A stretch of DNA of 64,000 bases, from NCBI GenBank assembly GCA_907163375.1, contig CAJQUW010003082.1, forward strand, positions 62,001 through 126,000. Direction: 5' to 3'. The position numbers and the translations under genes are program-made. The stretch comes from Prostheceraeus crozeri (Eukaryota; Platyhelminthes; Polycladida; Euryleptidae). How positions within the stretch are numbered: the stretch's first letter is position 1; the number at the start of each line of letters is the position of its first letter. Under the pieces are notes generated by a model. It saw only the letters and a program-made list of their open reading frames with translations, had not been told where the DNA came from and searched no databases. Positions 5,663 through 62,304 of this stretch are shown piece after piece.

Positions 5663-5705
5663 TTAATATTTTTAAAATAAAAATTTAGGAATTATTATTT
5701 TTTAA

Positions 5706-5835
5706 TTCCGGACTCGCATTCTTACACTCTTATGAGTGTTTTTAACCTCTGTAGAACCTCCGGAATGTGTCGGACTTTTTGTTCCTATACTCAAAAGAAG
5801 TATGTTCCGAACCTCTCCTCTCTTCCGGAATGCTT
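5706..5835. repeat. GC-rich islands upstream of the ATPase
   Basis: A non-coding stretch rich in short inverted repeats: ACTCTTATGAGT, several TCCGGA-type blocks and GGACTTTTTGTTCC. It resembles the dispersed palindromes found elsewhere in this element. It may also contain the ATPase promoter, but I see no decisive motif. Confidence 0.5.
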
Positions 5836-5900
5836 AAGAATATTTTAATAAAATAATATTTTATTCTTTATAAAAAAATAATATTTTAATATATATAAGA

Positions 5901-6000
5901 TTATTTTAGTTGAAATACAACTATTTTAGTTGAAATACAACTATTTTAGTTGAAATACAACTATTTTAGTTGAAATACAACTATTTTAGTTGAAATACTA
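5901..6000. repeat. 20-bp tandem repeat, five copies
   Basis: Five direct copies of TATTTTAGTTGAAATACAAC. Each unit contains the inverted repeat TAGTTG..CAACTA, so the array can fold into hairpins. The last copy differs at two bases. It follows the zinc-finger gene on the leftward strand. Confidence 0.9.
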
Positions 6001-6002
6001 AT

Positions 6003-6087
6003 ATAAATTATTATTTTGACATAAATTATTATTTTGTCATAAATTATTATTTTGGCATAAATTATTATTTTGACATAAATTATTATT
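6003..6087. repeat. 18-bp tandem repeat overlapping the zinc-finger gene 3' end
   Basis: Four to five copies of ATAAATTATTATTTTGAC with substitutions at the last bases. Read leftward, the proximal copies encode NNNLCQ repeats and the C-to-T variant at 6037-6039 provides the stop codon. Confidence 0.8.
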
Positions 6088-6971
6088 ATGTTGATTATTA
6101 TGTTGATTAAGTTTTGGAAATAGTGTTACATGTCGCTGAAAATTTTTCTTTAATATAATTTTTTGACAACCTCTACATTTAACTTTTTCTTTTAAACAAT
6201 CCTTACACTGATATTTACTATCATAAAACTCTGTCTTAGGTTTAGTAATTTGACAACTTGTACATTGTCTTGTAGAACTTATACAAGAATTATAATGATT
6301 AGTAATTCCTTGAATTGTAAAATATTTATTACAATTACGACATAACTGATCTTTTAATTTATCTTTTTTATTTTTTTTAACCTCTTCTGGTTGTTCGCAT
6401 AATTTTAAATGACGTGCAAAATTTTTTGATGTTATATTTTTATTACATCCGGAACATATTTTTTGTTATTACTTTCAACAAATTGATTTTTATCAATATA
6501 ATTATTTTGTGCTACATTATTATTTTGAACAAAAGGATTATTTGGAACAAAAGGATTATTTTGTGCTACATTATTATTTTGTGCTAAATAATTATTATTA
6601 TTTTGCCTAGGTGTATTTATTCTAGCAGTATTTTGCCTAGGTGTATTTATTCTAGCAGTATTTTGCCTAGGTGTATTTATTCTAGCAGTATAAAGATTTT
6701 GTTCTTTATCTGAAATAAATAAATGCTTTAATCTTTGTAATGGTTGCTCTGATTGAATATTATTATACTGAATACTATTATTAGGTTGAATATTATTCTG
6801 AATACTATTATTAGGTTGAATATTATTAGGTTGAATATTATTAGGTTGTATATTATTAGGTTGTAATTGATTCATATGCATACCACATGGTGTGTTTTTC
6901 ATATGAGAATATAATAGTGTTTGATTTAAAAAACGCATATTGCAAACTTGACAAATTTGAGTCATTTCCAT
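6037..6971 (-). CDS. Zinc-finger protein, frameshifted
   Basis: The first frame (6971 to 6432, 179 aa) starts with a C2H2 finger at residues 7-28 and continues with Asn/Gln-rich repeats (QPNNI copies) and three perfect copies of a 10-residue unit, TARINTPRQN. Near 6462, at a run of six A, the zinc-binding pattern jumps to another frame that stays open to a TGA at 6037. That second part holds at least three more CxxC or C2H2-like units (CSGCN, CRNCN, CTSCQ, CKDC, CRGCQ). I therefore read one gene of about 310 codons broken by a small indel; a sequencing error at the A-run is the alternative. A nucleic-acid-binding role is inferred only from the fingers. Confidence 0.7.
6601..6690. repeat. 30-bp tandem repeat, three copies, coding
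   Basis: Three identical direct copies of a 30-bp unit containing TTGCCTAGGTGTATTTATTC, encoding the TARINTPRQN repeat of the zinc-finger protein. Identity at the DNA level indicates recent expansion. Confidence 0.9.
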
Positions 6972-7059
6972 TTTTTTTATTTTTATTAGGAAAAATTTTA
7001 TTTTTTATAATTTATGTATTTTTTATAATCAGAAAAAATTTTATTTTTATTGTTTAAAA

Positions 7060-7839
7060 ATGATGTTACCAAATGTTGGTGGAGGTGCATATATCCCGAA
7101 TAATCGTGAATTAGAAATAGAGATAGAAAATTATATCATGAAAACTGGAGACGTTTTATCTGGTCCATTGCATCTTTCTATTCTTCCACAACAAAATACA
7201 GAGTTAACAAATAAACAATATGTTGATACGCAAATCAATGAATTAAAAGAAAAATATATAAACGATGTTTTGGTTCCACTGATGAATGAATTAAAGTTGC
7301 TTAAACTTAATGATAAATCATTAAACGAAAAATTATTAAAACTTGATAAAAAGGATAGAGAGCTAGAAGCAGATATAGCAAAACTTTTTAAAAAGATTTC
7401 AGAACAATCAAAAATTTTAATATTACTTTCTTTAAATTTAAAATCTGCAGTCATTAAAAATAAACATCAGATAAAAATGTTAAAAGAACAATTAGAAGAT
7501 GAAATAGAAAAACTACCTGAAAGAATTAAAAAAAATTTAAAACAGTTACAAACTACATTCCAAAAAAGTGTTGATGAATTGAGTTCTAAAATTACTCAAC
7601 AAATGAAAAAGATGAATAGAATAATAAATGAAGTAAACTCACTTAATGAAAAAGTTGATAAAATGAAAACTCTTAAAATCAATTTAGAAAATGAATTAAA
7701 GAAAAATTTACAAGAAAACTCTAAAGAAAATAAAGAACAGTTAGATGCTGTTAAAAGACAATTAGATGTTCTTAAAATTAAGTTAAATGCTCTTAAAACG
7801 GCGTTGAAGATTAATCAGCAGAAAATGCAAGTTAATTGA
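7060..7839 (+). CDS. Coiled-coil protein with phage-fibre-like N-terminal motif
   Basis: A 259-aa protein starting after TTTAAAA. Residues 27-58 read MKTGDVLSGPLHL then NKQYVDTQI, the pattern (GDxxSGPLxL ... KQYVD) typical of trimeric tail-fibre and receptor-binding proteins of phages. The rest, about 58-259, is almost continuous heptad-like coiled coil rich in Lys, Glu and Leu. A trimeric spike or fibre role is an inference. The TGA at 7837-7839 is followed in the same frame by 35 more sense codons, also coiled-coil-like (VQQAINKVISKLL), before a TAA at 7945. The original gene was thus probably about 295 codons and has acquired an early stop, unless the stop is read through. It diverges from the zinc-finger gene. 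Confidence 0.75.
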   Translation: MMLPNVGGGAYIPNNRELEIEIENYIMKTGDVLSGPLHLSILPQQNTELTNKQYVDTQINELKEKYINDVLVPLMNELKLLKLNDKSLNEKLLKLDKKDRELEADIAKLFKKISEQSKILILLSLNLKSAVIKNKHQIKMLKEQLEDEIEKLPERIKKNLKQLQTTFQKSVDELSSKITQQMKKMNRIINEVNSLNEKVDKMKTLKINLENELKKNLQENSKENKEQLDAVKRQLDVLKIKLNALKTALKINQQKMQVN

Positions 7840-7947
7840 AGAGAAATTAAAGTACATCACACGCTGCTTGACGCAATAGATAAAGTGCAACAGGCAATTA
7901 ATAAAGTTATCTCGAAGTTGTTAGATATTCATAAACGTAAATCTTAA
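7840..7947 (+). other. In-frame continuation after the TGA of the fibre-like gene
   Basis: Thirty-five sense codons in the same frame as the preceding gene, with the same coiled-coil composition, ending in TAA. It supports an early nonsense mutation or readthrough in the fibre-like gene rather than a separate gene. Confidence 0.6.
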
Positions 7948-8089
7948 ACGAGTATTGTAAATATTAATTTAAATATTTTTTACCTACAAAAAATAAAAAT
8001 CATAAAAAAATATAAATATAATTTAAAAAATATATATATAATTTTAAAAATATAAAAGTATAAATATATAAAAGTATATAATTTTAAAA

Positions 8090-8263
8090 ATGGATAAAAT
8101 TAGAGCTAATAATTTTAAAAGAATTAAACAATTAGAAGAGTTGATTAAAGAAAGAAATATTATGAAAGAAAATCATAGAATAAAAAGAATGATTGATGCA
8201 GGTTTGGTTCCTGATAAAGTTAAACCAAAAACGCAATCTGCAAAAGTTAAGAACAAAAAATAA
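8090..8263 (+). CDS. Small basic protein, 57 aa
   Basis: ATG at 8090 in TTTTAAAAATGG context, the same leader style as the other rightward genes, and TAA at 8261. The product is lysine-rich and probably helical (EELIKERNIMKENHRIKRM). I do not recognise it. A small basic protein among virion genes could be a DNA-condensing core protein, but that is inference from position and charge. Confidence 0.6.
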   Translation: MDKIRANNFKRIKQLEELIKERNIMKENHRIKRMIDAGLVPDKVKPKTQSAKVKNKK

Positions 8264-8279
8264 ACATTTTTTTTATAAT

Positions 8280-8341
8280 GGACATCGGTTCATGGGTCAA
8301 CGGAGATGTCTTCCAGGGCTTCGCGCTTCGCGCTTCACCCG
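8280..8341. repeat. GC-rich palindromic island
   Basis: A GC-rich block between the 57-aa gene and the next gene: GACATC..GATGTC inverted arms, then TTCCAGGGCTTCGCGCTTCG. The core AGCCCTGGAAGACATCTCCG (reverse strand) recurs at 14.1 kb. No function is apparent. Confidence 0.65.
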
Positions 8342-8357
8342 TATTTATATTTTTCCC

Positions 8358-8370
8358 AAAAAGTCAAATT
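8358..8370 (+). promoter_or_regulatory. Candidate promoter motif AAAAAGTCAAATT before the 182-aa gene
   Basis: AAAAAGTCAAATT ends 12 nt before the ATG at 8383. The identical 13-mer ends 13 nt before the capsid gene ATG at 9069. Same motif and spacing before two likely virion genes suggests a shared late-type element. Confidence 0.5.
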
Positions 8371-8382
8371 TATTCCTAAAAA

Positions 8383-8931
8383 ATGCCTATAATTTATAAA
8401 CACAATCTTAAACATTTTGCTTCAAATCAAAAAATTGCTCATGAACCACGTATGAATCCTGTTTATCATTATGATAATAGAGAAACAGTCGGAACAGAAA
8501 AGTTCCTAGGCACCGCAGGTGCCGTCCAAAAAGAAGGGGATGGCATCTTTTCTGGTATTGGTAGTATCGTTAACTTAATTAAAAATAATAAAGATTTGAT
8601 TACATCTGCTGCAAAAGGAGCAGCTGCTATAGGTAGTACAGCTAGTGCAATATCAAATGCTGTTAAATCACAAAACGAATTAAAACAACTAGAAGCTATT
8701 CGTAAACTCAAGAATGATTCTGAAGAACTAAAAAAATTAAAAAAACTTTCAGAGGAAACAAAAAACAAAATTGCTAACATAGCTGTGGGGGGTGAAACCT
8801 TGAGGAGCGGAGCTCCGTCTAATAGTAAACATAATGAAAAAACAATTGAAGAAATAAGAGGTAATGGCGTGAGCAGCAACCTTCGGTCTAACCAGCAAAG
8901 CTGTAGCGGAGCTGGTCTAGCAAAATTCTAA
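8383..8931 (+). CDS. Hydrophobic minor virion-type protein, 182 aa
   Basis: Residues 52-95 form a Gly/Ala/Ile/Ser-rich hydrophobic or amphipathic stretch (DGIFSGIGSIVNLI, then AAKGAAAIGSTASAI), followed by a Lys/Glu coiled coil (about 97-130). Such a membrane-active stretch next to a capsid gene is reminiscent of the small membrane-interacting minor capsid proteins of adeno-like and Polinton-like viruses; this is inference. Three GC-rich palindromic blocks lie in frame and supply residues near 37-48 (FLGTAGAV), 135-146 (ETLRSGAP) and the whole C-terminus from about 161. The stop codon is inside the first unit of a 23-bp tandem repeat. Confidence 0.7.
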   Translation: MPIIYKHNLKHFASNQKIAHEPRMNPVYHYDNRETVGTEKFLGTAGAVQKEGDGIFSGIGSIVNLIKNNKDLITSAAKGAAAIGSTASAISNAVKSQNELKQLEAIRKLKNDSEELKKLKKLSEETKNKIANIAVGGETLRSGAPSNSKHNEKTIEEIRGNGVSSNLRSNQQSCSGAGLAKF

Positions 8932-9011
8932 AATTATATTTAGTAAAATTCTAAAATTATATTTAGTAAAATTCTAAAATTATATTTAGTAAAATTCTAA
9001 AATTATATTTA
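8922..9011. repeat. 23-bp tandem repeat, four copies
   Basis: Four copies of AAAATTCTAAAATTATATTT plus AGT. The first copy contains the stop codon of the upstream gene. The array separates that gene from the capsid gene. Confidence 0.85.
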
Positions 9012-9042
9012 ATAAAAATTTTTTTCTATCTGTGAGAAAAAC

Positions 9043-9055
9043 AAAAAGTCAAATT
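9043..9055 (+). promoter_or_regulatory. Candidate promoter motif AAAAAGTCAAATT before the capsid gene
   Basis: Second copy of the 13-mer also seen at 8358-8370, again 12-13 nt upstream of an ATG. Confidence 0.5.
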
Positions 9056-9068
9056 ATTTCTTATAAAA

Positions 9069-10403
9069 ATGTCTTCGCTTATCGAAAATAAATTTAAATT
9101 AGATGATCCCCCGTTCACCAGTTACAATCAAAAAAAGAATGACTATATAAGAATTGCTATGAATCCCGGATCTTCCAGTAGAGTAAACACTGGAGGAGAT
9201 TTAATCTTTGAAGTTGATAATCAGCAGAGTTATTTATATTTACCTGATTCATTTTTACACTGTGAATATTCTTTATATAGTGATGCTAATTTTACAACAC
9301 CATTACCAGATACTGATAATATTACACTAGAGAATAATTTTTTCCCAAGTTTATTTACACAAATGCGTTTAGATGTTGCAACTCAAAATATAGAAACAAT
9401 AAGTGATTCTCCAGGTGTAATTGATACAATGCTTAGATTTATAACAATTGGTGAAAATAATAAAAAGTATGAAATCGAAGGTTGGTTTCCTGATACTAAT
9501 GATGGTATAATTATTGATGATTTAACTCACGCTGGAACAGATGCAGCAGGAATTGCGAAAGATGTAGAAAATATTGCAAAACATTTAAATAAAACAAATA
9601 ATGAAGCATATAAAGAAAGACGTGAATTTAACAAAAAAAGTAAACAGACAGTAAATTGGTCATTGTCTCCATTATTCGGTTATTTAGATTATGATAAAAT
9701 ATCATATCAATTAAAATTTAAATTAATAATTCATCGTACAGCAAATAATGAATTAATCTTTTTTGGTAAGACTGGGAAAAAAGCATATTTAAAAATTGAT
9801 AGACTTGAATGGTGGATTAAGCATATTACTCCTAGTTTAGAGATTGAAACAGCTATTGCAAAAAGATTAAATACTAACAAACCAATTCCAGTTAATTTTC
9901 TAAAGAGAACAGCTAGTTCAGTAACTTTTTCCGAACAAAGATTTAACTGGCATTTTACTAGAACTGCGAATACCCCAAGATATTTATTACTAACATTTCA
10001 AAGAAATAATTCTCCAAGTTTTGATAAGAACAATAATATCTTCCATATTAATACAATTCGAAGTTTACAAGTTTCATTAAATCAAACTCGATATCCAATT
10101 GATCCATTAAGATTCGATGATACCAATAATCAATTTATGGAAGGATATGATTCTTATAGAAATCTTTGTATAGAATTTGGAGTTGAACCACAATTAACTC
10201 CTGGAGATTGGAGACATTTATATCCAATTTTCTGCTTCGATTTAAGTGCACAATCTGAAGATATTATTAAAAATGGTTGTGATGTAACAATTAATATTGA
10301 AAAGAAAGATTCCACAACTTCATTGATGGCTTATGGTTTATTGCTAGGAGATACAAAATATTCTATTGAAGTTCTTAATGGGAAGATGGTTAGGATCGGC
10401 TAA
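9069..10403 (+). CDS. Major capsid protein, double-jelly-roll (hexon-like) type
   Basis: A 444-aa protein in the position and size range of Polinton/adintovirus hexons. The pattern fits: an N-terminal strand region with YLYLPDSFLHCEY (about 58-70), then SLFTQMRLDV (about 96-105) where Polinton capsids usually have a short 'SLFSQVDV'-like stretch, and a later charged strand KIDRLEWWIKHITPSLEIE (about 246-264). No cysteine-rich or enzymatic motif is present. It would form the pseudo-hexameric capsomers. The start follows the AAAAAGTCAAATT motif. The TAA lies inside a GC-rich island (GATCGGCTAAAGCGC), suggesting that a dispersed element supplied the present C-terminus or stop. Assignment rests on pattern and neighbours; a structure prediction would settle it. 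Confidence 0.8.
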   Translation: MSSLIENKFKLDDPPFTSYNQKKNDYIRIAMNPGSSSRVNTGGDLIFEVDNQQSYLYLPDSFLHCEYSLYSDANFTTPLPDTDNITLENNFFPSLFTQMRLDVATQNIETISDSPGVIDTMLRFITIGENNKKYEIEGWFPDTNDGIIIDDLTHAGTDAAGIAKDVENIAKHLNKTNNEAYKERREFNKKSKQTVNWSLSPLFGYLDYDKISYQLKFKLIIHRTANNELIFFGKTGKKAYLKIDRLEWWIKHITPSLEIETAIAKRLNTNKPIPVNFLKRTASSVTFSEQRFNWHFTRTANTPRYLLLTFQRNNSPSFDKNNNIFHINTIRSLQVSLNQTRYPIDPLRFDDTNNQFMEGYDSYRNLCIEFGVEPQLTPGDWRHLYPIFCFDLSAQSEDIIKNGCDVTINIEKKDSTTSLMAYGLLLGDTKYSIEVLNGKMVRIG

Positions 10404-10612
10404 AGCGCTAAAGCGCTAAAGCCAGAGGAGCTTTGCTCCGATAGGTTAATTAAAATTTTTTTCATAACAAGAATAGATTAAAATTTTTGTTAACTTAAAA
10501 ATTCTTAACTTAAAAATTCATAACTAGAATAGATTAAAAAATTCTTAACTTAAAATTTTTTCATAACTAGAATAGATTTAAATTTTTGATAACTTAAAAT
10601 TTTTTATTAAAA
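10399..10612. repeat. Intergenic: GC palindromic island, then A/T repeats
   Basis: First AAAGCGCTAAAGCGCTAAAG and GAGGAGCTTTGCTCCGATAGG, close copies of islands at 11.1 and 14.4 kb. Then diverged direct repeats built from TAACTAGAATAGATT and TTAACTTAAAAATTC up to the next gene. No coding frame is seen. Confidence 0.75.
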
Positions 10613-11098
10613 ATGTCGCAAGCGAAAAGTAATATTAATAATAAAACTGTTGAACTAAAATTACGTAATATTGTTGACAAAAATACCCCTAAAACTATTA
10701 CGATTAATAAAAAAACGTATTACATAAGTAAACCAATGATAGAGAATATTCAATTACAAGAAGAAAAGAATGGTGGGATTCTTCCATTAATTCCACTAAT
10801 AATAGGTGGCATAGCTGCAGCAGGAAGTGTTGCAGGTGGGACAGCTGGTATTGTCCAAGCAGTAAATAAAAATAAATCAGAGAAGGCAGCATTAGAAGAA
10901 CAAAAACGTCATAACAGAGAGTTAGAGAAAGTTGCTAGGGGTGAAGGAGTAGTAGATAATTTTATTAGTAAATTAAAATTAGTTGATGAAGGAAAACGAG
11001 TTCTTAAAAATATTCTCCACAATGTTGATGATTTAATTGAAATTAAAGAAACTAAAGATGGTTCTGGAATATATCTAAGTCCTAGTATGATAAGGTAA
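10613..11098 (+). CDS. Hydrophobic minor virion-type protein, 161 aa
   Basis: An N-terminal basic/polar part (1-50) precedes a Gly/Ala/Ile-rich stretch at residues 54-83 (GGILPLIPLIIGGIAAAG, then AGGTAGIVQAVN) and a Lys/Glu helix (84-110). The LPLIPL-Gly/Ala-AGIxxAVN pattern resembles short membrane-associated virion proteins that I associate with Polinton and adintovirus gene clusters; I would not name it further. Position between capsid and integrase genes supports a virion role. A palindromic island directly follows the stop. Confidence 0.65.
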   Translation: MSQAKSNINNKTVELKLRNIVDKNTPKTITINKKTYYISKPMIENIQLQEEKNGGILPLIPLIIGGIAAAGSVAGGTAGIVQAVNKNKSEKAALEEQKRHNRELEKVARGEGVVDNFISKLKLVDEGKRVLKNILHNVDDLIEIKETKDGSGIYLSPSMIR

Positions 11099-11103
11099 TA
11101 ACC

Positions 11104-11155
11104 TGAGGAGCTTCGCTCCGATAGGCTAAAGCCTCAGAACCTTTGGTTCTTTTCG
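11104..11155. repeat. GC-rich palindromic island
   Basis: Contains GAGGAGCTTCGCTCCGATAGG (hairpin GGAGC-TTC-GCTCC), GGCTAAAGCC and AGAACCTTTGGTTCT in a row. The first two recur at 10425-10442, 14398-14430 and 14478-14510. Confidence 0.75.
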
Positions 11156-11204
11156 GTAAAACATTCATTTTATTTTATCTTTTAAATTTTTTTTATCTTT
11201 TAAA

Positions 11205-12548
11205 ATGGATACCGCAAATTCCACAAATTCAGAAAATTTAATTAAATTAAAAATTGCTAATTTAGATTTATTAAATTATCTATTAAACAAAAATAAAAAC
11301 TCAAACTGTCAGCATATTGGAGGTGACAAGAACACAGTTCCATACCACTTCGGTGGTGATATACAAAAAACATTAGAAAACTTTCCTGGATTTATTTGGA
11401 GTAAATATTCGAAAGAAAAACATCTTCCTGGTCATTCATATACTGGTCCAGGAACTCGATTAGATATAAGACTAGATGAGAATAATAATCCGAAACCAGG
11501 TGAAGAACCAATAAATAGAGTAGATGCCGCCGCTTACAGGCATGATTTAGCTTATCGAAATCATGATCTAAGTTCTCGACATGCAGCTGATAAGAAGATG
11601 ATTCAAGAATTAGATAGTATTCAGAATCCTTCCTTTAGAGAAAGAATTGAAAGAATGTTTGTTAAGAAAGCTTTACAAGCTAAAATATTATTCGGTCAGG
11701 GTTTAAATGAAAATCATAATTCAGACGTTTATGCATCTGAAATTCATAAAGAATATAGAAAGCCTAAATATTTATTAAAAGTAAAAGTATTTAATAAAGA
11801 TGATATTTGGAGTGCTGATCTTATTCATATGCCGAATGAAAGGAACCGAACCGAAGGTTCTAAGACAAAGTCTGACTACAAATACGCATTGACCGTTATA
11901 GATTTATATACACGATATGCTTGGGTAAAACCTTTAAAAAATAAAAGTGGTCTTTCAGTTAAATATGCGTTTGAAGAAATCTTTAAAGAAAGTAATAGAA
12001 AGCCAAAAAAATTGTTTGTTGATAAAGGGTCGGAATTTTATAACAGAAATGTTCAGCCACTATTTGAAACTGTTTATTCAACTGAAAACGCAGGAAAAGC
12101 TATAGTGATAGAAAGATTCAATCGGACGTTGAAAAATATAATTTTCAAAAAATTTACTCAGCAAGGAAATAAGAAATGGTTAAAAATATTACCAGGAATT
12201 GTAGAGCAGTACAATAATAAAGTTCATTCAGGTATTGAAGAAACCCCAAAGAATGCTTCTGACGACCCTGATTTAATACGAAAGAAAATATTCGAGAATA
12301 ATAATTTGAATGAGAGTAATCCGAATTTGCAGAAACTTAAGCCGAAATTTAAAATTGGAGATAGAGTTAGAATATTTAAATATAAGAACAAATTTGAAAA
12401 AGGCTTTGTTGGCTATTGGACTAAAGAAATATTTGAAGTTTGCAAAATAAATCAAAGTTATCCGATTACTTATGAAATTAAAGATTTAGATAATGAGGAT
12501 ATCAGAGGCCGTTTTTATCAAAATGAATTACAGAAAACAGAGCTTTAA
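11205..12548 (+). CDS. Fusion of parvovirus-type phospholipase A2 domain and rve-type integrase
   Basis: A 447-aa frame with two catalytic modules. Residues 73-130 match the compact PLA2 fold of parvovirus VP1: calcium loop YTGPGT at 79-84 and catalytic AAYRHDLAY at 109-117. This would open membranes during entry. From about 175 the frame becomes a Polinton-type integrase: SEIHK/ DDIWSADL with Asp205, FVDKGSEFYN with Asp273, VIERFNRTLK with Glu303, and a C-terminal SH3/chromo-like tail (KFKIGDRVRIFKY at about 382). The Asp273-Glu303 gap is 29 residues, shorter than the usual 33-35, so strand transfer may be impaired. Residues 211-224 are an insertion coded by a GC-rich palindrome. Faces the protease gene tail to tail, 44 bp apart. 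Confidence 0.88.
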   Translation: MDTANSTNSENLIKLKIANLDLLNYLLNKNKNSNCQHIGGDKNTVPYHFGGDIQKTLENFPGFIWSKYSKEKHLPGHSYTGPGTRLDIRLDENNNPKPGEEPINRVDAAAYRHDLAYRNHDLSSRHAADKKMIQELDSIQNPSFRERIERMFVKKALQAKILFGQGLNENHNSDVYASEIHKEYRKPKYLLKVKVFNKDDIWSADLIHMPNERNRTEGSKTKSDYKYALTVIDLYTRYAWVKPLKNKSGLSVKYAFEEIFKESNRKPKKLFVDKGSEFYNRNVQPLFETVYSTENAGKAIVIERFNRTLKNIIFKKFTQQGNKKWLKILPGIVEQYNNKVHSGIEETPKNASDDPDLIRKKIFENNNLNESNPNLQKLKPKFKIGDRVRIFKYKNKFEKGFVGYWTKEIFEVCKINQSYPITYEIKDLDNEDIRGRFYQNELQKTEL

Positions 12549-56200: not shown

Positions 56201-56269
56201 AATATTATCGCATTGATAAGATATACCAGTAGTAAGTAAAACTCCACTTCTGGACCGCGCAAGATGGCC

Positions 56270-57860
56270 GCCATCGCTGAGTCCCCCCCCCCTCTGGCAC
56301 GGCAGAGTGTCGTGGTCGGCCGCCGTGGTGCTTCGGGTCTGAGTCCCCCCCCCTGGAACGACGGAGGTTGTAGTCTGTCGTGGTGTGTCGGCCAGGTGGG
56401 TTCACGTTCACAACATGTTCGCTGACTCCCCCCCCCTCTGCAACGACAGAGTGTGAGACTCGGGTAAGTTGGTCCGACCGCCTGGTTGACGTGGGCGACC
56501 GTCTAGGTTGACGTGGGCGACCGCCAGGATTAGTCTTGAGGCTATAGTGTGTGATGTTTTTGGTGCAATCTGCTGAATGTTGGGTTGTAAAATGGGTTGT
56601 TTCGAGTGGAAGGAGTGGTCGGATGAGAAAACGGAGGTCGGATTCGTATTCAGCGTGAAATTCTGCATCGGTAGGGTGAGTTTCAAGTCAATCGGTGAGA
56701 AAACATTTTCAACATTTTTCGAAAAACGACAGAGTTAGAATTTGGGACGTTTTGGTGTGTAGCGTCAAAACGAAGCATCGGATGAGAAAACGGAGGTCAG
56801 ATTCGGATTCAGCGTGAAATTCTGCATCGGTAGGGTGAGTTTCAAGTCAATCGGAGAGAAAAAATTTTCGGCTGACGTCCCCCCCCCCTGGACAGCTTGC
56901 TTCGATTTTGGCTTCCAGTGGACGGATTTTGTCGTGCGATAGCTCGTTTGAAAGCTAAGAGTGAGACAAATTCAGTGAAAGAATCGGCTTGTTCCTATCT
57001 GTCTTCGTTCAAAAGTTAGAGCGGTTACAAGATTTTAGGTCGGAGCTCGCTCACCTGAAAAAATCCTATGTGTCAGAGTGGCTTTGTATGGGTAAAATTT
57101 TGAAAATTTTCCAAAGTGTGGAATTTCGACCTGGGACCGTCACCAAAACATTTTTCATCAAATTTCACTGACCTCCCCCCCCCCGACAGCAATCTTCTAA
57201 CTTTGGTTCTAGTGGACGGATTTTGTCTTACAGCTACTCGTTTGAAAGAGGAGAAAAAACTGCTCGACAACATTTTTTTTGCGAGTCAATCGGACCAGCC
57301 GTTCAAAAGTTAGAGCGGTTACAAGATTTTAGGTCGGAGCTCGCTTACCTGAAAAAATCCTAAGTGTCAGAGTGACTTTGTATGGGTAAAATTTTGAAAA
57401 TTTTCCAAAGTGTGGAATTTCGACCTGGGACCGTCACCAAAACATTTTTCATCAAATTTCACTGACCTCCCCCCCCTCTGGACAGCTAGCTTCTAACTTT
57501 GGTTCCAGTGGACGGATTTTGTCGTGCGATAGCTCGTTTGAAAGCTAAGAGTGAGACAAATTCAGTGAAAGAATCGGCTTGTTCCTATCTGTCTTCGTTC
57601 AAAAGTTAGAGCGGTTACAAGATTTTAGGTCGGAGCTCGCTCACCTGAAAAAATCCTAAGTGTCAGAGTGACTTTGTATGGGTAAAATTTTGAAAATTTT
57701 CCAAAGTGTGGAATTTCGACCTGGGACCGTCACCAAAACATTTTTCATCAAATTTCTCTGAACGAGGGGGGGAGGGGGGGAGTCAGTGAAATTTGATGAA
57801 AAATGTTTTGGTAAAGGTTCCAGGTCGAAATTCGGAAGTTTTAAATTTTTCAAAATTTTC
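56270..57860. repeat. C/G-tract repeats with about 295-bp tandem units and a terminal palindrome
   Basis: Runs of 7-10 C occur at least six times (56285, 56345, 56430, 56880, 57175, 57468). TTTCGACCTGGGACCGTCAC recurs at about 57124, 57418 and 57714, spaced 294-296 bp; an earlier pair of TCTGCATCGGTAGGGTGAGT is about 158 bp apart. At the right edge the unit meets its own inverse around GGGGGGGAGGGGGGG (57766-57780). No gene is supported. Confidence 0.85.
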
Positions 57861-58068
57861 ACCACACTGGAGCTCTCACACTTAGGAATTTTTTCACTTG
57901 TGGCATGTTACATGGACATGTGCTGACGGACCAACTTCCCGTGGTCATATGAGAATGGTTCAGGTGTCATATTGTAAAGAATGATGAGACGAATCGTTTG
58001 CAACAAACCGCATGTCGCTACGATGAATACTTTCGGAGATAGAGCCATTTTAAGTTTTCTTCCGAGCA

Positions 58069-58076
58069 TATATAAA
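58069..58076 (+). promoter_or_regulatory. TATA box upstream of the 380-aa gene
   Basis: TATATAAA about 25 bp before TCACTTCATC, an initiator-like sequence also seen as TCATTTCA/TCATTCAA behind the other three TATA boxes of this locus. A possible donor GAG|GTAAGC at 58118 suggests a 5' leader intron before the ATG at 58686. Confidence 0.6.
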
Positions 58077-58685
58077 CCCCCGACAACGTAAGTCTGATCA
58101 CTTCATCGAAAGACGAGGTAAGCGCCGGTCGTCGCTCTGAGCTCCCGATATCGGGTGTTTCAAAGGACTCTATCTTTTGAAGTAGGCAAGCTATCTTGTT
58201 ACTTCAAAGTTTGTATGATAGAGTTTGATAGTGTCTTTACTACTGATAAAATTTTTTAAAAGTAGTATGAGTAGTAAAATGCGGAATTTTTTAAAAATTC
58301 TTAATTTTCACTTTTTTCAAAGTTTTAACATATAGACTAAGGTTTTCAAGTATCCTGAGTTCAAATCTGCTATCAGATTTGAAATTCAACTAATTCTAAG
58401 GCAGCTTTGAGGGGTTAGATCCCAGCTACTGATCACTACCTTTGACTCGGCGTTCCTGTTACCACTTCGGGGCAGTGACAATGATGTCTTCAGCTGTAAA
58501 GAGCGGGTATCGGGGAAGATCTCTCACTTCCCTAGTGATCAGTACAAGGCCTTCGGGCTGTCGACGGGATCGAGTGCCACTCACTACACTCTTTAGGAAT
58601 ATGACTGTACTACATGATTCCAAACTTATACAAATTTCATTATCTTACAACTATTAACGATAAAAACAGAAAGTACCATATCAAA

Positions 58686-59828
58686 ATGTCTGTGTGCGGT
58701 CGTATAAATCGCAGTGCGGACGCCAAGACTCATGTCAAGAAGGCGGGCACCGGCCACATGATTATCTTGAATAGGGTTGCGTGCGCGAAGTGTAGAGTGC
58801 TGAAGGGTGATGAGGATGAGGCGCGTTTTTACAGAGTGCATGCTGACTGTAGTGGTGGTTTAGTGACTGATTTGAGATTTACGCAGTTGATTGTGGAAGA
58901 GAGGGAGCGAATGTTGGCGATCGAGCGAGAGGGTAAGGTTGAGAATTTTGTTGAGAATGTTGTTGAGAATGATGAGTTGGCGAGAGCGGTTGCGTCGTCG
59001 GAGGGTGAGATTGGGCGAAAGAGAGTGCTTGAGAGTGATGATGAGGATGATGTGGATTTAGATAGGGAGCGTGTGAGGAAGCGTGTGAGGAAGTTGAGAT
59101 CTTCGTCATCGGAGGTGTCAAACATCGTCATCACCGACCCCCCGAAGAGCTCATCTTCCCCAAAAGTGAAGAGTGGTGGGATTCGTGTGCAGTCGGCGAG
59201 GTGGTTGAAGGATGAAGAGAAGAGGCATGTTTCGCAGCAGATGGCGCATGATTTGTTGGTGAATAAGTATGAGAGTTTGAAGAAAGTGAAGGATGAAGTT
59301 GTGAAGGAGTTGGATGAGTTAAAAAAGAAGGAACTGAAGTCGAAGGAGGTGGCGGATGAAAACATTAGAATGAGGCGTTGTGTGACTGATTTGAAGAATA
59401 AGACGCGAGAGTTGGAAGAGAAGAATGATGAGTGTGAGAAGAGGGCGAGTGCTGCGGAGAGAAGAATGAGAGATGCAGAGGCGAAGTTTGAGGAGATGAT
59501 GAAGGAGATGAGTGTGTTGAGAGCGAGGAATGTTGAGTTGGAGAGGACTGTGGCTCGGCGGGGTGATGAGAGGCAGGCGTATGAGAAGTTGGAGCGCATG
59601 AGGGATGAGTGGAAACGTGTGAATGAGGATCGTTTGTTTGAGTTTCACATCCCTATTCGGGATAATCATTTGGCCGGCGAAGTACTCGTCAATCAAAGTC
59701 TCGACGAGTCCATCCTATGTTACAATGGTCATCCCACGAAAAAGTGTCTCCATGCCAGCCTGAGAATGCGCGGCCATCTACACAAATTTTCGATTCGGAA
59801 ACGCGCGAGACTACCAAAGGATGACTAA
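58686..59828 (+). CDS. Acidic/basic coiled-coil protein, 380 aa, unknown
   Basis: Starting at the ATG in ATCAAAATGT context rather than an upstream ATG at 58614. Residues 1-60 contain Cys and His that could bind zinc (CGRINRS, CAKCRVLKG, HADC). A Ser/Asp/Arg-rich segment follows (about 115-160: LESDDEDDVDLD then RKRVRKLRSSSS), then a long coiled coil (about 185-320). The last 60 residues differ in composition and match, at protein level, the antisense translation of the first part of the same gene (PIRDNHLAG versus PIQDNHVAG). A GT-AG intron begins 4 nt after the stop. I do not recognise the family; nuclear regulatory or structural roles are guesses. Confidence 0.7.
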   Translation: MSVCGRINRSADAKTHVKKAGTGHMIILNRVACAKCRVLKGDEDEARFYRVHADCSGGLVTDLRFTQLIVEERERMLAIEREGKVENFVENVVENDELARAVASSEGEIGRKRVLESDDEDDVDLDRERVRKRVRKLRSSSSEVSNIVITDPPKSSSSPKVKSGGIRVQSARWLKDEEKRHVSQQMAHDLLVNKYESLKKVKDEVVKELDELKKKELKSKEVADENIRMRRCVTDLKNKTRELEEKNDECEKRASAAERRMRDAEAKFEEMMKEMSVLRARNVELERTVARRGDERQAYEKLERMRDEWKRVNEDRLFEFHIPIRDNHLAGEVLVNQSLDESILCYNGHPTKKCLHASLRMRGHLHKFSIRKRARLPKDD

Positions 59829-59832
59829 CTTG

Positions 59833-59893
59833 GTAAGTGAAAAAGTAAATAAGATAGTATATCCTATTCTAATACATATCATTTTCATTGCAG
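59833..59893 (+). other. Probable short intron after the stop codon of the 380-aa gene
   Basis: Donor TG|GTAAGTGAAAAAG and acceptor TTTTCATTGCAG|ATC, 61 bp, the same size class as the two introns of the polymerase gene nearby (67 and 59 bp). It would lie in the 3' leader, or join an alternative short frame. Confidence 0.6.
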
Positions 59894-59929
59894 ATCTTTG
59901 CCCGCCTTCACCACCCCATCACGTCACTC

Positions 59930-60071
59930 CCGAGAACGAACCATCGGCTCTCTTAAGGGCCACCTAGGGGCAAGACATGATAGAACCTCCACGCGGTTTG
60001 CCCTGGGCAGTCTTCGGACTGGCGAATACTATCATTAAGTTGAAACTGCTATCAGTCAACTTGAACGTTGC
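59930..60071 (+). promoter_or_regulatory. Histone-type 3' end block, copy 1
   Basis: Stem-loop GGCTCTCTTAAGGGCC at 59946-59961 (6-bp stem, 4-nt loop), followed by ACC as in histone mRNAs, then CAAGACATGATAGAA at 59971, a purine-rich block in the place of the histone downstream element. Further hairpins: CAGTC-TTCG-GACTG (UUCG tetraloop) and AAGTTGA..TCAACTT. Nearly identical to copies 2 and 3. Confidence 0.75.
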
Positions 60072-60086
60072 GTCGCGTTAGAGGGG

Positions 60087-60093
60087 TATATAA
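60087..60093 (+). promoter_or_regulatory. TATA box of the 88-aa gene
   Basis: GTATATAAACC; repeated CATTT initiator-like units 25-35 bp downstream; the ATG at 60126 implies a very short leader. Confidence 0.7.
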
Positions 60094-60125
60094 ACCACTG
60101 CCTCTCATTTCATTTCATTTCAATC

Positions 60126-60392
60126 ATGCAGACGCCGAACAGTCAAGTCAGCTCTCCTCGCGGACCGCAGTTAAGGCCGCGAAATTTATTTGAGGAGTTT
60201 GTCAGGCTAGAGGAGCAAGACAGAGTTTTTAATAATCTTGCTCGGATTGGCAATCCGATGACAGCAACTGCTGTCAATCCAACGGAATGGCGCTACATTC
60301 CACTTTTTAGCCATGTGCCAGTTAGTGTGGAAGTCGACAGTGCTACCAAAGAGAGAGTCAAAGACTCTCTCAGCAGAATTGTTAGGGTGTAA
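60126..60392 (+). CDS. 88-aa protein, unknown, histone-type mRNA 3' end
   Basis: Compact gene: TATA box 33 bp before the ATG, and a histone-like stem-loop 29 nt after the stop. The product has a Pro/Ser/Arg N-terminus (TPNSQVSSPRGPQLRPRN), then a helical acidic part (LFEEFVRLEEQD) and a possible strand region (WRYIPLFSHVPVSVEV). It is not a histone and I know no homologue. Size, promoter and 3' end match the 84-aa neighbour, so the two are likely co-regulated. Confidence 0.7.
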   Translation: MQTPNSQVSSPRGPQLRPRNLFEEFVRLEEQDRVFNNLARIGNPMTATAVNPTEWRYIPLFSHVPVSVEVDSATKERVKDSLSRIVRV

Positions 60393-60399
60393 GATGACG

Positions 60400-60545
60400 T
60401 TACTCCCGAGAACGAACCATCGGCTCTCTTAAGGGCCACCATGGGGCAAGACATGATAGAACCTCCTCGCGGTTTGCCCAGGGCAGTCTTCGGACTGGCG
60501 AATACTATCATTAAGTTGAATCTGCTATCAGTCAACTTGAACATT
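60400..60545 (+). promoter_or_regulatory. Histone-type 3' end block, copy 2
   Basis: Stem-loop GGCTCTCTTAAGGGCC at 60422-60437, ACC, then CAAGACATGATAGAA at 60447; the TTCG hairpin follows. Only a few substitutions relative to copies 1 and 3. Confidence 0.75.
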
Positions 60546-60610
60546 ATGCAGTCGATTGCCATCCCTGAAGCATTCTGATTCGCTGTTGAGCAATTCATTG
60601 TTGAAAACCC

Positions 60611-60617
60611 TATATAA
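60611..60617 (+). promoter_or_regulatory. TATA box of the 84-aa gene
   Basis: CCTATATAAGCC with CTCATTCAA about 28 bp downstream and ATG at 60659. Confidence 0.7.
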
Positions 60618-60658
60618 GCCAGAAGATTGTAGCGCTTCTCATTCAATTTGAAGTCACG

Positions 60659-60913
60659 ATGGAAGCGACATCTACCCACAACATTCCCGTCTTCACTGAT
60701 GAAGACAACACTATTCCCGAGTTCATCATCCTCGACGAGTGGGATGAAGAGGATGAGAAGAAGGGGAAGATTAAGAAGATCATTTGGACGGATGAGGTAT
60801 GGACTCCGAATACCACCCGCATCCGAAAGGTGCCAGATGCACCAGTACGACCTCGGCGGTATAGGGTCTATGACAACCTAACCGTCATACCCATTGACTA
60901 TTCCAGTCAATAG
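60659..60913 (+). CDS. 84-aa acidic protein, unknown, histone-type mRNA 3' end
   Basis: TATA box 42 bp upstream, histone-like stem-loop 31 nt after the stop. The middle is strongly acidic then basic (LDEWDEEDEKKGKIKKIIW), the C-terminus is Arg/Pro-rich (APVRPRRYRVYDN). No similarity to the 88-aa neighbour despite the near-identical 3' blocks. No known family recognised. Confidence 0.7.
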   Translation: MEATSTHNIPVFTDEDNTIPEFIILDEWDEEDEKKGKIKKIIWTDEVWTPNTTRIRKVPDAPVRPRRYRVYDNLTVIPIDYSSQ

Positions 60914-60924
60914 TCAACTTAATT

Positions 60925-61072
60925 GACACCGAGAACGAACCATCGGCTCTCTTAAGGGCCACCATGGGGCAAGACATGATAGAACCTCCACGCGGTTTGC
61001 CCTGGGCAGTCTTCGGACTGGCGAATACTATCATTAAGTTGAATCTGCTATCAGTCAACTTGAACGTTGCAA
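60925..61072 (+). promoter_or_regulatory. Histone-type 3' end block, copy 3
   Basis: Stem-loop GGCTCTCTTAAGGGCC at 60945-60960, ACC, CAAGACATGATAGAA at 60970, TTCG hairpin and AAGTTGA..TCAACTT stem as in copies 1 and 2. Confidence 0.75.
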
Positions 61073-61400
61073 ATGAAGTTCGGTGTAATACTTCCTTTCG
61101 ACGGGCGTTCCTGTAAAGGGCGGCGGTGAAACCCGTAGCTATGTATACCGCAAGGGACATTCGGCAATGGTCAATCTTGTTAAACCTCTCTGCGTCATGT
61201 TTGCAAGTGATTGCCTCTGTCTCAACGCAGTATGCATTCGCGTCAGGGCGACATTTAGCCAACTGTCGAAGGTTGCCTAAAACTTTCCATTGCATACGTT
61301 ATGAGAACCATGAGTTCTACCTGTCTCTATCAATGAGACGAATTGATGAATGGAATGAAATGGGAGGACACTCACGCGCCACACGCAACATAACACACTT
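61073..61400. other. No clear gene
   Basis: A 95-codon rightward frame (61126-61413) lacks the TATA box and the stem-loop of its neighbours and runs into a repeat, so I do not call it. Confidence 0.4.
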
Positions 61401-61401
61401 C

Positions 61402-61812
61402 TCTCTTCCGTAGTCTAACAAGCTCTTTACACATGGATCGCAGTCGATTGCTATCCCTGTATCAGAAGTGTAAGCTATCTTAATTTATTTGACACTATTT
61501 CATCTACCATCATCGTCCATATGAAATGTTTTAAGATTTACAAGTTAGACTAAGCGTGCTACTATTTCCAAATGAAAAAGTATACATGGTTAAATCATCC
61601 ACTTAAGCCCATCCGTAGTCTAACAAGCTCTTTACACATGGATCGCAGTCGATTGCTATCCCTGTATCAGAAGTGTAAGCTATCTTAATTTTATTTGACA
61701 CTATTTCATCTACCATTATCACCCATATGAAATGTTATAAGATTTGCAAGTTAAACTAAGCGTGCTACTATTTCCAAATGAAAAAGTATACATGGTTAAA
61801 TTATTCACTAAA
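61402..61812. repeat. Direct duplication of about 207 bp
   Basis: CCGTAGTCTAACAAGCTCTT begins at about 61408 and again at 61615; both copies run through GCAGTCGATTGCTATCCCTG to AAAGTATACATGGTTAAAT with few changes. Part of it (CAGTCGATTGC.ATCCCTG) also follows histone-type block 2 at 60551. Confidence 0.85.
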
Positions 61813-61866
61813 ACCCCATTCAAGTAAGTCAGTATGAAAGCAAAGATAATACGAAATAAACATTTA

Positions 61867-62304
61867 TTATGGCATGTATTTCAAAAGGTCTTCATCGTCA
61901 ATATCGTCCCAGAGTCTGGCTTCACATAGATCACAAAAACAGTTGAGCTGCTTTAAACGTTCTTCTGCAGCGTCCCTCACTTTCTCAATGTACGCCCACT
62001 CCGCCACGGTTCGCGGTTGGGAGTTAGGGGTGTACCACTCCCATATTTGATGCAAGTGCGACTTGCTGGTCATCTCCATCACCCCTTCGGCATCATATTG
62101 TAAATATTTCCACCGTATGCCTGTTAGGTCGGGCAACTCCTCTTCATCCTCCTCCGATAATGATAACTTTCGTATATTGTCCAGTCGGTACACCTTCTCC
62201 ACCTTCGCCTTTCTTGGTGCATTTGGTGTAACGAGCACCTTTGCTGATGTACATGGAGAGGAGAACTCCAATGCGGTATTTGGTGTTGTTGGAGGACTTG
62301 TCAT
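61867..62304 (-). CDS. 145-aa acidic protein, unknown
   Basis: Leftward gene with a Ser/Thr/Pro N-terminus, an acidic patch (LSLSEEDEEELPDLTG), a Trp-rich middle (HQIWEWYTPN) and a Cys-containing acidic end (CFCDLCEARLWDDIDDEDL). AATAAA overlaps the stop codon, so this gene uses ordinary polyadenylation, unlike the three rightward genes. It is divergent from the polymerase gene with about 290 bp between starts. I see no LxCxE motif. Family not recognised. Confidence 0.7.
   Translation of the reverse strand: MTSPPTTPNTALEFSSPCTSAKVLVTPNAPRKAKVEKVYRLDNIRKLSLSEEDEEELPDLTGIRWKYLQYDAEGVMEMTSKSHLHQIWEWYTPNSQPRTVAEWAYIEKVRDAAEERLKQLNCFCDLCEARLWDDIDDEDLLKYMP

Follow-up and report, generated by a model that had tools for sequence, protein, structure and literature searches.

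Passages of the cited literature place the cut in histone pre-mRNA 5 nucleotides (nt) past the stem-loop, with a minor cut at 7 nt (PMC6303110), and describe C. elegans histone mRNAs that end 3–6 nt past the stem-loop with a 3'-OH and whose loops also start with C (PMC1924863). Ribozymes resembling that of hepatitis delta virus (HDV-like ribozymes) are described as cleaving immediately 5' of the ribozyme domain (PMC4035085) and as freeing 5' ends in retrotransposons (PMC3774820). The theta ribozymes of gut phages are also HDV-like and were proposed to make tRNA 3' ends (PMC10879173). In a further report an HDV ribozyme is joined behind a histone stem-loop RNA for uniform 3' ends in vitro (PMC12775136). 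The locus analysed here lies in a 64,000-nt stretch of the Prostheceraeus crozeri contig CAJQUW010003082.1 (the window; coordinates are window positions). A histone-type stem-loop and a predicted HDV-like ribozyme stand behind each of three short genes, which to judge from the gene content belong to a Maverick/Polinton-like element. With a probability of about three in four, the mRNAs of these genes form their own histone-like, SLBP-type 3' ends by self-cleavage. The basis is the anatomy of the locus, the fold, its conservation and covariation, the likeness to host histone ends and the host SLBP.

A pattern search of the window finds GGCTCTCTTAAGGGCC exactly at 59946, 60422 and 60945 of the plus strand and, with up to three mismatches, at no additional position (0.05 matches expected from shuffles). 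The stem-loop has a 6-bp stem of the type GGYYYY/RRRRCC and a 4-nt loop with U at loop position 3, the loop being CUUA. It is followed by ACC. The 5' flank is AUC in the window family and AAAC in many sister units elsewhere in the genome. The purine block CAAGACATGATAGAA follows exactly at 59971, 60447 and 60970; allowing up to three mismatches, it has nine matches in the window, which is not above chance. Both motifs are contained in a direct repeat of 152 nt (59918–60069, 60394–60545 and 60917–61068), copies 2 and 3 of which are 95% and 91% identical to copy 1. The three open reading frames (ORFs) ahead of the copies (380, 88 and 84 amino acids, aa) are mutually dissimilar. From the stop codon to the stem-loop there are 29 nt in ORF2, 31 nt in ORF3 and 117 nt in ORF1. 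Subtraction of a predicted 61-nt intron leaves 56 nt for ORF1, which is closer to the range of the other stem-loops.

A sequence-only reading of this DNA had described the stem-loop, ACC and purine block behind three consecutive genes with unlike products, the stop distances of 29, 31 and (spliced) about 56 nt, and a leftward neighbour that uses AATAAA. All of this was found as described, the AATAAA overlapping the stop codon of 61867–62304. The same reading had placed the purine block 9–10 nt after ACC; the block is present, but it begins 9 nt past the stem-loop and 6 nt past ACC. The check it had proposed, a search with the Rfam histone stem-loop model Histone3, matches all three copies at 18.9, 18.1 and 18.1 bits (E 0.06–0.12), below the cut-off of 34 bits. 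A default scan of the window at the Rfam gathering thresholds reports a tRNA only, and beside the units (58000–58700 and 61040–61870) no Rfam match was found at E≤1.

The RNA behind the stem-loops almost certainly has the fold of an HDV-like ribozyme. The putative ribozyme comprises 69 nt and has P4, the two crossing helices, a trefoil loop (L3) and a cytosine in the catalytic position. One crossing helix pairs GGGGCAA with UUGCCCU; for the other, AUGAUAG, located between these two strands, pairs with CUAUCAU further 3'. Inside the crossing helices ACC-UCC(A/U)CGC-GGU is followed by CAGUC-UUCG-GACUG and then by GCGAAUA. The arrangement P1, P2, P3 with L3, P1.1, P4 and J4/2, which we take to be the plan of HDV-like ribozymes, is borne out by the Rfam alignments, and CAAGACATGATAGAA supplies strands of P1 and P2. 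The Rfam models RF02682 (26.8, 22.2 and 26.8 bits for units 1–3, E 0.02–0.24, cut-off 44) and RF00094 (24.8, 21.4 and 25.9 bits, E 0.4–2.8, cut-off 50) both align over their full length. A descriptor of the HDV fold, composed after the sequences had been seen, matches three sites of the window only, which are the three units, and no site in 60 dinucleotide-shuffled windows.

Related units are widespread in the host. The genome of 2.05 Gb contains 11,984 exact copies of GGCTCTCTTAAGGGCCACC, the tag of the window stem-loop (a count of tag copies, not of elements), and no copy of the reversed pattern. A genome search with Histone3, in which 75 of 295,389 candidates were scored, gave 52 matches, and 28 of the 30 examined are element units and not histone genes. 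These units carry GGCTCTTTTAAGAGCC (once GGCTCTTTTTAGAGCC) with the ribozyme 3' of it, many with a second unit GGTCTTTTTAAAGACC close by. Among the candidates scored, nine matches exceed the cut-off, namely seven element units (L017–L023, 34.3–36.1 bits) and two orphans, L015 and L016. The orphans were rejected as histone genes, as no histone frame was found within 600 nt upstream. L015 (1501–1547, minus strand) is the best Histone3 match listed (38.2 bits) and consists of an H3-type stem-loop with CAAAC ahead.

The readable proteins upstream of the sister units are homologues of ORF1 and ORF2. ORF1 is 20–24% identical in six of the eleven aligned relatives and ORF2 48–55% identical in five of six, and the unit is kept in both sets; in five comparisons it is 75–80% identical. 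Between the window family of ORF2 and the others, synonymous divergence (dS) amounts to 0.86–1.40 and the ratio of nonsynonymous to synonymous divergence (dN/dS) is 0.27–0.44. L001 and L005 have units near-identical to those of the window behind ORF1 relatives that are just 20–24% identical. Thus, the module seems to move or to be homogenised between genes.

A ribozyme follows 60 of the 69 distinct, strictly paired stem-loops (reading by eye; 48 with a stricter regular expression). This is not a genome-wide rate, since the loci were mostly picked for a matching stem-loop, and the coupling rests on the individually examined units. The nine stem-loops without a ribozyme belong to six host histone genes (L056, L058, L060/L084, L061, L088 and L089), to L015 and L016, and to a phage match (L045). 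A model of the whole unit (R1), run over 16 sources, scores complete element units at 97.6–112.2 bits (four matches) and one cut-off match at 59.7 bits. Host histone stem-loops reach 18.2–20.7 bits, L015 30.1, L016 21.6 and the phage match 22.0 bits. As this chance match scores like the histone stem-loops, R1 cannot tell a bare stem-loop from chance.

For the analysis of pairing, 30 hand-chosen units (29 distinct) were aligned in 107 columns with 30 pairs including the stem-loop (869 cells). The units were taken mostly from a list of 45 (four places without a recognised stem-loop, two rows with a misplaced stem-loop). Standard pairs occupy 96.0% of the cells, compared with 24.7–44.4% for slid partners. 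Two-sided changes are found in three pairs of the stem-loop and in one pair each of P1, P2 and P4. The cells with two-sided changes number 49 versus 18.0 after shuffling and the covariation score is 0.180 versus 0.107; none of 500 shuffles reaches either value. The cut-site pair of HDV is G.U. In the 29 distinct rows the cut-site pair that opens P1 (columns 34/72) is GU in 23 and AU in two, three rows are unpaired and one has a gap. All 30 units have the predicted catalytic C, with variation at both neighbouring positions, and in L3 the residues U, C and C are each found in 30 of 30 and G in 29 of 30. This conservation of the catalytic C is more telling than the covariation counts.

The predicted cut is located 5 nt past the stem-loop in all three window units. 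In the 30 aligned units this distance is 5 nt (14 units), 4 nt (13 units), 2 nt (two units) or 9 nt (one unit). A predicted cut at 4–5 nt and a histone cut at 5 nt place the ribozyme in register for a histone-like end. Each gene would be transcribed through stem-loop and ribozyme, and the ribozyme would fold as the polymerase passes and cut just 5' of its first G. The resulting mRNA would end with the stem-loop and ACCAU or ACCUA (ACAC or ACAU in many sister units). Binding of SLBP to the freed end would then yield a non-polyadenylated, translatable mRNA without U7 or CPSF73. We infer self-cleavage, SLBP binding and the lack of poly(A) from sequence. Self-cleavage by this class of ribozymes leaves a 2',3'-cyclic phosphate. 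Such an end may resist the 3' trimming and uridylation that initiate histone mRNA decay, and by further extension the mRNAs may be uncoupled from S-phase decay. The ribozyme end may not behave like a histone end, and linkage to S phase need not follow.

Comparison with the histone genes of the host supports the histone type of the stem-loop. Among the 30 best histone loci (L053–L082), which are H3 wherever a frame was read (28 of 30), only four retain such a stem-loop within 250 nt past the stop, in all cases GGCCCT-CUUA-AGGGCC. By eye, many of the other loci diverge within the last 10 nt or so ahead of where the stem-loop would be, as if they derived from histone mRNAs reverse-transcribed from a start just upstream of it. 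In one H2A gene and in one H1 gene the stem-loop reads GGCCCT-UUUA-AGGGCC. A search for a histone cluster showed H3-like frames only in the pieces examined. Six histone genes of the host were read, namely these four H3 genes, the H2A gene and the H1 gene, and in none of them is a ribozyme present 3' of the stem-loop. The window stem-loop differs from that of host H3 by one pair. The element unit L090 carries a stem-loop identical to host H3, followed by ACCAU and the ribozyme; the exact host-type stem-loop GGCCCTYTTAAGGGCCAC occurs 41 times in the genome, L090 included. Before the stem the host genes have GUGAACGC or GUGAAAGC, followed by either AAAC or AACC, and the elements have GAGAACGC..AAAC or GAGAACGAACC. 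The likeness of host and element extends about 15 nt upstream of the stem.

L090 and the sister units L017–L023 support the histone type proposed in the sequence-only reading. Its remark that C is unusual as first loop base does not hold for this host, where CUUA is the loop of the four H3 stem-loops. The SLBP domain is found in the host as two matches over the cut-off on C10478 (52.7 and 32.9 bits), which jointly span the profile. U7 small nuclear RNA was not found over the cut-off in a weak genome search (65 of 574,164 candidates scored, best match 23.9 versus 34 bits), and low-scoring U7 matches also appear in 12 of 14 control genomes.

The stem-loop, ACC and the distance from the stop would also fit histone-style processing, with SLBP on the stem-loop and the U7 small nuclear ribonucleoprotein (snRNP) on CAAGACATGATAGAA, which is purine-rich and had been taken for a U7 element. 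Purine-rich ACAAAGAAAAA behind the orphan L016 and GTTGAAAAAGC behind the H1 stem-loop suggest that the host may have U7 sites. However, both halves of CAAGACATGATAGAA pair inside the ribozyme fold and show two-sided changes in sister units, which alter the block yet keep the pairing, and the catalytic C of this fold is invariant in the aligned units. No similar block is found by eye at that place in the six host histone genes, and the U7 search, weak as it was, gave nothing over the cut-off. Since the block provides strands of P1 and P2 of a predicted ribozyme with kept pairing, it is not a U7 site, and the end would come from self-cleavage and not from U7 snRNP and CPSF73. Processing through U7 is accordingly very unlikely. 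Just as unlikely is the view that the ribozymes are decayed, inactive relics. The low Rfam scores and damaged genomic copies, such as the first unit of L020 with a deletion at L3/P3, would agree with decay, but the catalytic C is kept in 30 of 30 units and the helices are maintained across subfamilies while ORF2 has reached a dS of about 1.

Two further explanations accept a cut by the ribozyme. The stem-loop might be a mere structural cap or a helper of the ribozyme, with SLBP not involved. A hairpin alone is able to shield a 3' end, the 5' flank of the window family deviates from the usual A-rich flank, and an alternative pairing joins the flanks of the stem-loop to the cut site. This explanation is improbable, though less so than the others, given a stem-loop that is one pair off host H3 and identical to it in L090, with a similar upstream motif and stop distance. 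Alternatively, the ribozyme might act for the downstream RNA, either by releasing the 5' end of the transcript that follows, in the manner of R2 and further retrotransposons, or by splitting a polycistronic RNA. The units do sit between genes, and the HDV-like ribozymes of mobile elements treated in passages of PMC3774820 act at 5' ends. TATATAA boxes are present 51 nt past unit 1 and 99 nt past unit 2 (none within 160 nt past unit 3), so that transcription of the following gene apparently begins independently, and a histone stem-loop would be purposeless in such a role. A downstream function is very unlikely.

Several observations weigh against SLBP-type ends formed through self-cleavage. None of the Rfam matches of the three window units reaches its gathering cut-off (HDV models 21.4–26.8 versus 44–50 bits, Histone3 18.1–18.9 versus 34 bits); for HDV-like ribozymes, such a curated cut-off is a threshold of the library and not a defining structural feature. 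The descriptor matches 28 of 42 element loci and misses 14. Window unit 2 has A for U in the cut-site pair and is one of the unpaired rows. J4/2 of the sister families is one nucleotide longer before AA (ACUGAAU versus GCGAAUA), and ahead of the stem the window subfamily carries AUC in place of AAAC. The stem-loop, but not the whole ribozyme, appears in energy folds computed without pseudoknots, which are only slightly better than those of shuffles (z -1.7 to -2.0); in two of the three folds, CCA(U) of the flank is paired to (A)UGG of the cut site. As to the alignment, better-kept units were chosen and damaged ones such as L020 and L024 were left out. By two measures the covariation is not above shuffling: six pairs show a two-sided change versus 5.3 after shuffling (reached in 227 of 500 shuffles), and further pair types number 15 versus 17.7 (500 of 500). 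Moreover, the rows are related, so that the covariation comes down to few independent events, a handful between subfamilies. The weaker SLBP match (32.9 bits) contains a TGA.

In unit 3 (60937–60970) a pairing is possible between CCAU, which precedes the stem, and the AUGG that spans the cut site. An alternative pairing of flank and cut site of this kind could hold the ribozyme off and may represent an off state. A hairpin AAGUUGA..UCAACUU follows each ribozyme (60037–60062, 60513–60538 and 61036–61061) and has a counterpart in a sister subfamily (L021); that of unit 3 forms in the energy fold. It may be part of a terminator or of a promoter. The features of the locus are listed in Table 1.

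Table 1. Features of the three-gene locus and its neighbours in the window.
Feature	Position	Strand	Basis
TATATAA box upstream of ORF1	58069..58075	+	read directly
ORF1 (380 aa) with a Cys-rich N-terminus, a long coiled coil and a small C-terminal part	58686..59828	+	ORF list, structure model
Predicted 61-nt intron in the ORF1 3' untranslated region, GTAAGT...TTGCAG	59833..59893	+	sequence signals only
Histone-type stem-loop, unit 1, CUUA loop, then ACCTA	59946..59961	+	pattern and Rfam match
Predicted HDV-like ribozyme, unit 1; predicted cut 59966/59967	59967..60035	+	Rfam alignment, covariation, descriptor
Hairpin immediately 3' of ribozyme 1	60037..60062	+	repeat comparison
TATATAA box of ORF2	60087..60093	+	read from sequence
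ORF2, 88 aa; homologues in sister subfamilies, dN/dS 0.27–0.44 versus them	60126..60392	+	ORF comparison
Histone-type stem-loop, unit 2, then ACCAT	60422..60437	+	pattern and Rfam match
Predicted HDV-like ribozyme, unit 2; predicted cut 60442/60443; A for U in cut-site G.U pair	60443..60511	+	Rfam alignment, descriptor
TATATAA box of ORF3	60611..60617	+	read from sequence
ORF3, 84 aa	60659..60913	+	ORF reading
Histone-type stem-loop, unit 3, then ACCAT	60945..60960	+	pattern and Rfam match
Predicted HDV-like ribozyme, unit 3; predicted cut 60965/60966	60966..61034	+	Rfam alignment, descriptor
Convergent 145-aa ORF; AATAAA overlaps stop codon; no stem-loop (contrast)	61867..62304	-	read from sequence
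DNA polymerase B-like gene, first part, C2H2 finger; continues into L046	62790..63998	+	ORF and homologue comparison

The structure model of ORF1 is of low confidence (mean predicted local distance difference test 64.9, predicted template-modelling score 0.26) and consists mostly of a single long helix (174–312). ORF1 has two homologues at E≤0.001. The 9.5 kb of the contig that follow the window (L046) encode a DNA polymerase B (PolB) with an Endonuclease VII domain over the cut-off and a C48-like protease (18.6 bits, cut-off 20.7). A chromodomain, also over the cut-off, is located at the end of an apparent integrase, the core of which lies beyond the piece read. Capsid-like and other ORFs were named by eye; the capsid-like ORF has no Pfam match. 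PolB, the putative protease and the capsid-like and chromodomain/integrase-like ORFs together agree with a Maverick/Polinton content. Of 7,995 candidates scored against the polymerase of this copy, 1,123 are related at E≤0.001. These relatives are at most 83% identical, apart from one 98% entry without a stated source, and homologues such as P0029 and P0030 carry the precomputed PF03175. The polymerase continues in a second, overlapping frame (L046 1950–2573), and this copy is probably broken at the overlapping frames.

In L046 no stem-loop was found with up to three mismatches and no match to R1. In the interval that separates the convergent polymerase gene from its neighbour, AATAAA is present on both strands (2724–2737 of L046); the frequency of AATAAA in L046 is not above chance. 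With no units in L046 and AATAAA between its genes, ordinary polyadenylation may serve the other genes of the element, and the stem-loop units only the three short ones, within the stretch read. In IMG/VR the PolB fragment had no match, and an alignment of PolB gave 37 pattern stretches, none of which was confirmed. The single IMG/VR match to the stem-loop pattern, a phage coding sequence (L045) without a ribozyme, was taken as chance.

Some arrangements in the neighbourhood and elsewhere are recorded here. The interval from unit 3 to the leftward gene contains two copies of a direct repeat of about 205 nt (61407–61816). Just outside the gene cluster, 56240–57800 contains repeats in which runs of C occur and the motif GGTCGGAGCTCGCT recurs. 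A different virus-like element at 4121–12548 has an A32-like ATPase, a double-jelly-roll capsid-like ORF and an ORF that fuses a phospholipase A2-like domain with an integrase core. L049 (C82:218700-223200) and L050 (C82:230300-234900) are inverted element parts about 12 kb apart and 99.6% identical over 4.5 kb; L047 and L048 on C9 are arranged similarly at 96%.

Non-histone genes of a mobile, virus-like element thus carry a histone 3' signal and an adjoining predicted self-cleaving RNA at the same cut distance. Both parts are of known kinds; new is their coupling, which would open a protein-free path to mRNA ends of the SLBP type. On balance, this probably represents a further natural route to animal mRNA 3' ends, without poly(A) and without U7, in which a histone stem-loop is freed by an HDV-like ribozyme. 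The element would have captured the histone tag together with an RNA nuclease of its own, with export and translation via SLBP and a possible escape from replication-coupled decay. If so, HDV-like ribozymes gain a role in the formation of mRNA 3' ends, thousands of element copies could compete with histone mRNAs for SLBP, and the stem-loop's own role becomes testable without U7, CPSF73 or a 3'-OH.

In the literature searched, largely without subscription papers, no earlier report was found of a natural combination of stem-loop and HDV-like ribozyme, nor one that places either HDV-like ribozymes or 3' ends of histone type in Mavericks/Polintons. With Mavericks/Polintons the element shares a PolB with an Endonuclease VII domain and a chromodomain ORF and, tentatively, a C48-like protease just under the cut-off and ORFs judged capsid-like by eye. 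The likeness to histone mRNA 3' ends comprises the 6-bp stem, the 4-nt loop, ACC or ACA 3' of it, the predicted cut 4–5 nt behind and a stem-loop commonly 19–31 nt past the stop in units with intact ORFs. In contrast to histone genes, the genes are non-histone, lack a U7 element and have a predicted cut by a ribozyme in cis. Histone mRNAs carry a 3'-OH, whereas from the chemistry of the ribozyme a 2',3'-cyclic phosphate is expected here. The nested double pseudoknot P1–P4, L3, P1.1, the catalytic C in J4/2 and the predicted cut 5' of P1 are shared with the HDV-like ribozymes of HDV, CPEB3, R2 and L1Tc. Unlike these, the element units are below the Rfam cut-off, stand behind ORFs of a DNA element and are coupled to a histone stem-loop, and here it is the RNA 5' of the cut that would act as functional product. 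The theta ribozymes, as presented in PMC10879173, are likewise HDV-like and proposed to replace protein enzymes in making the 3' end of an RNA; they differ in serving phage tRNA 3' ends and in being minimal, without P4. The fusion described in PMC12775136 is engineered, whereas the layout of the element is natural and genome-borne.

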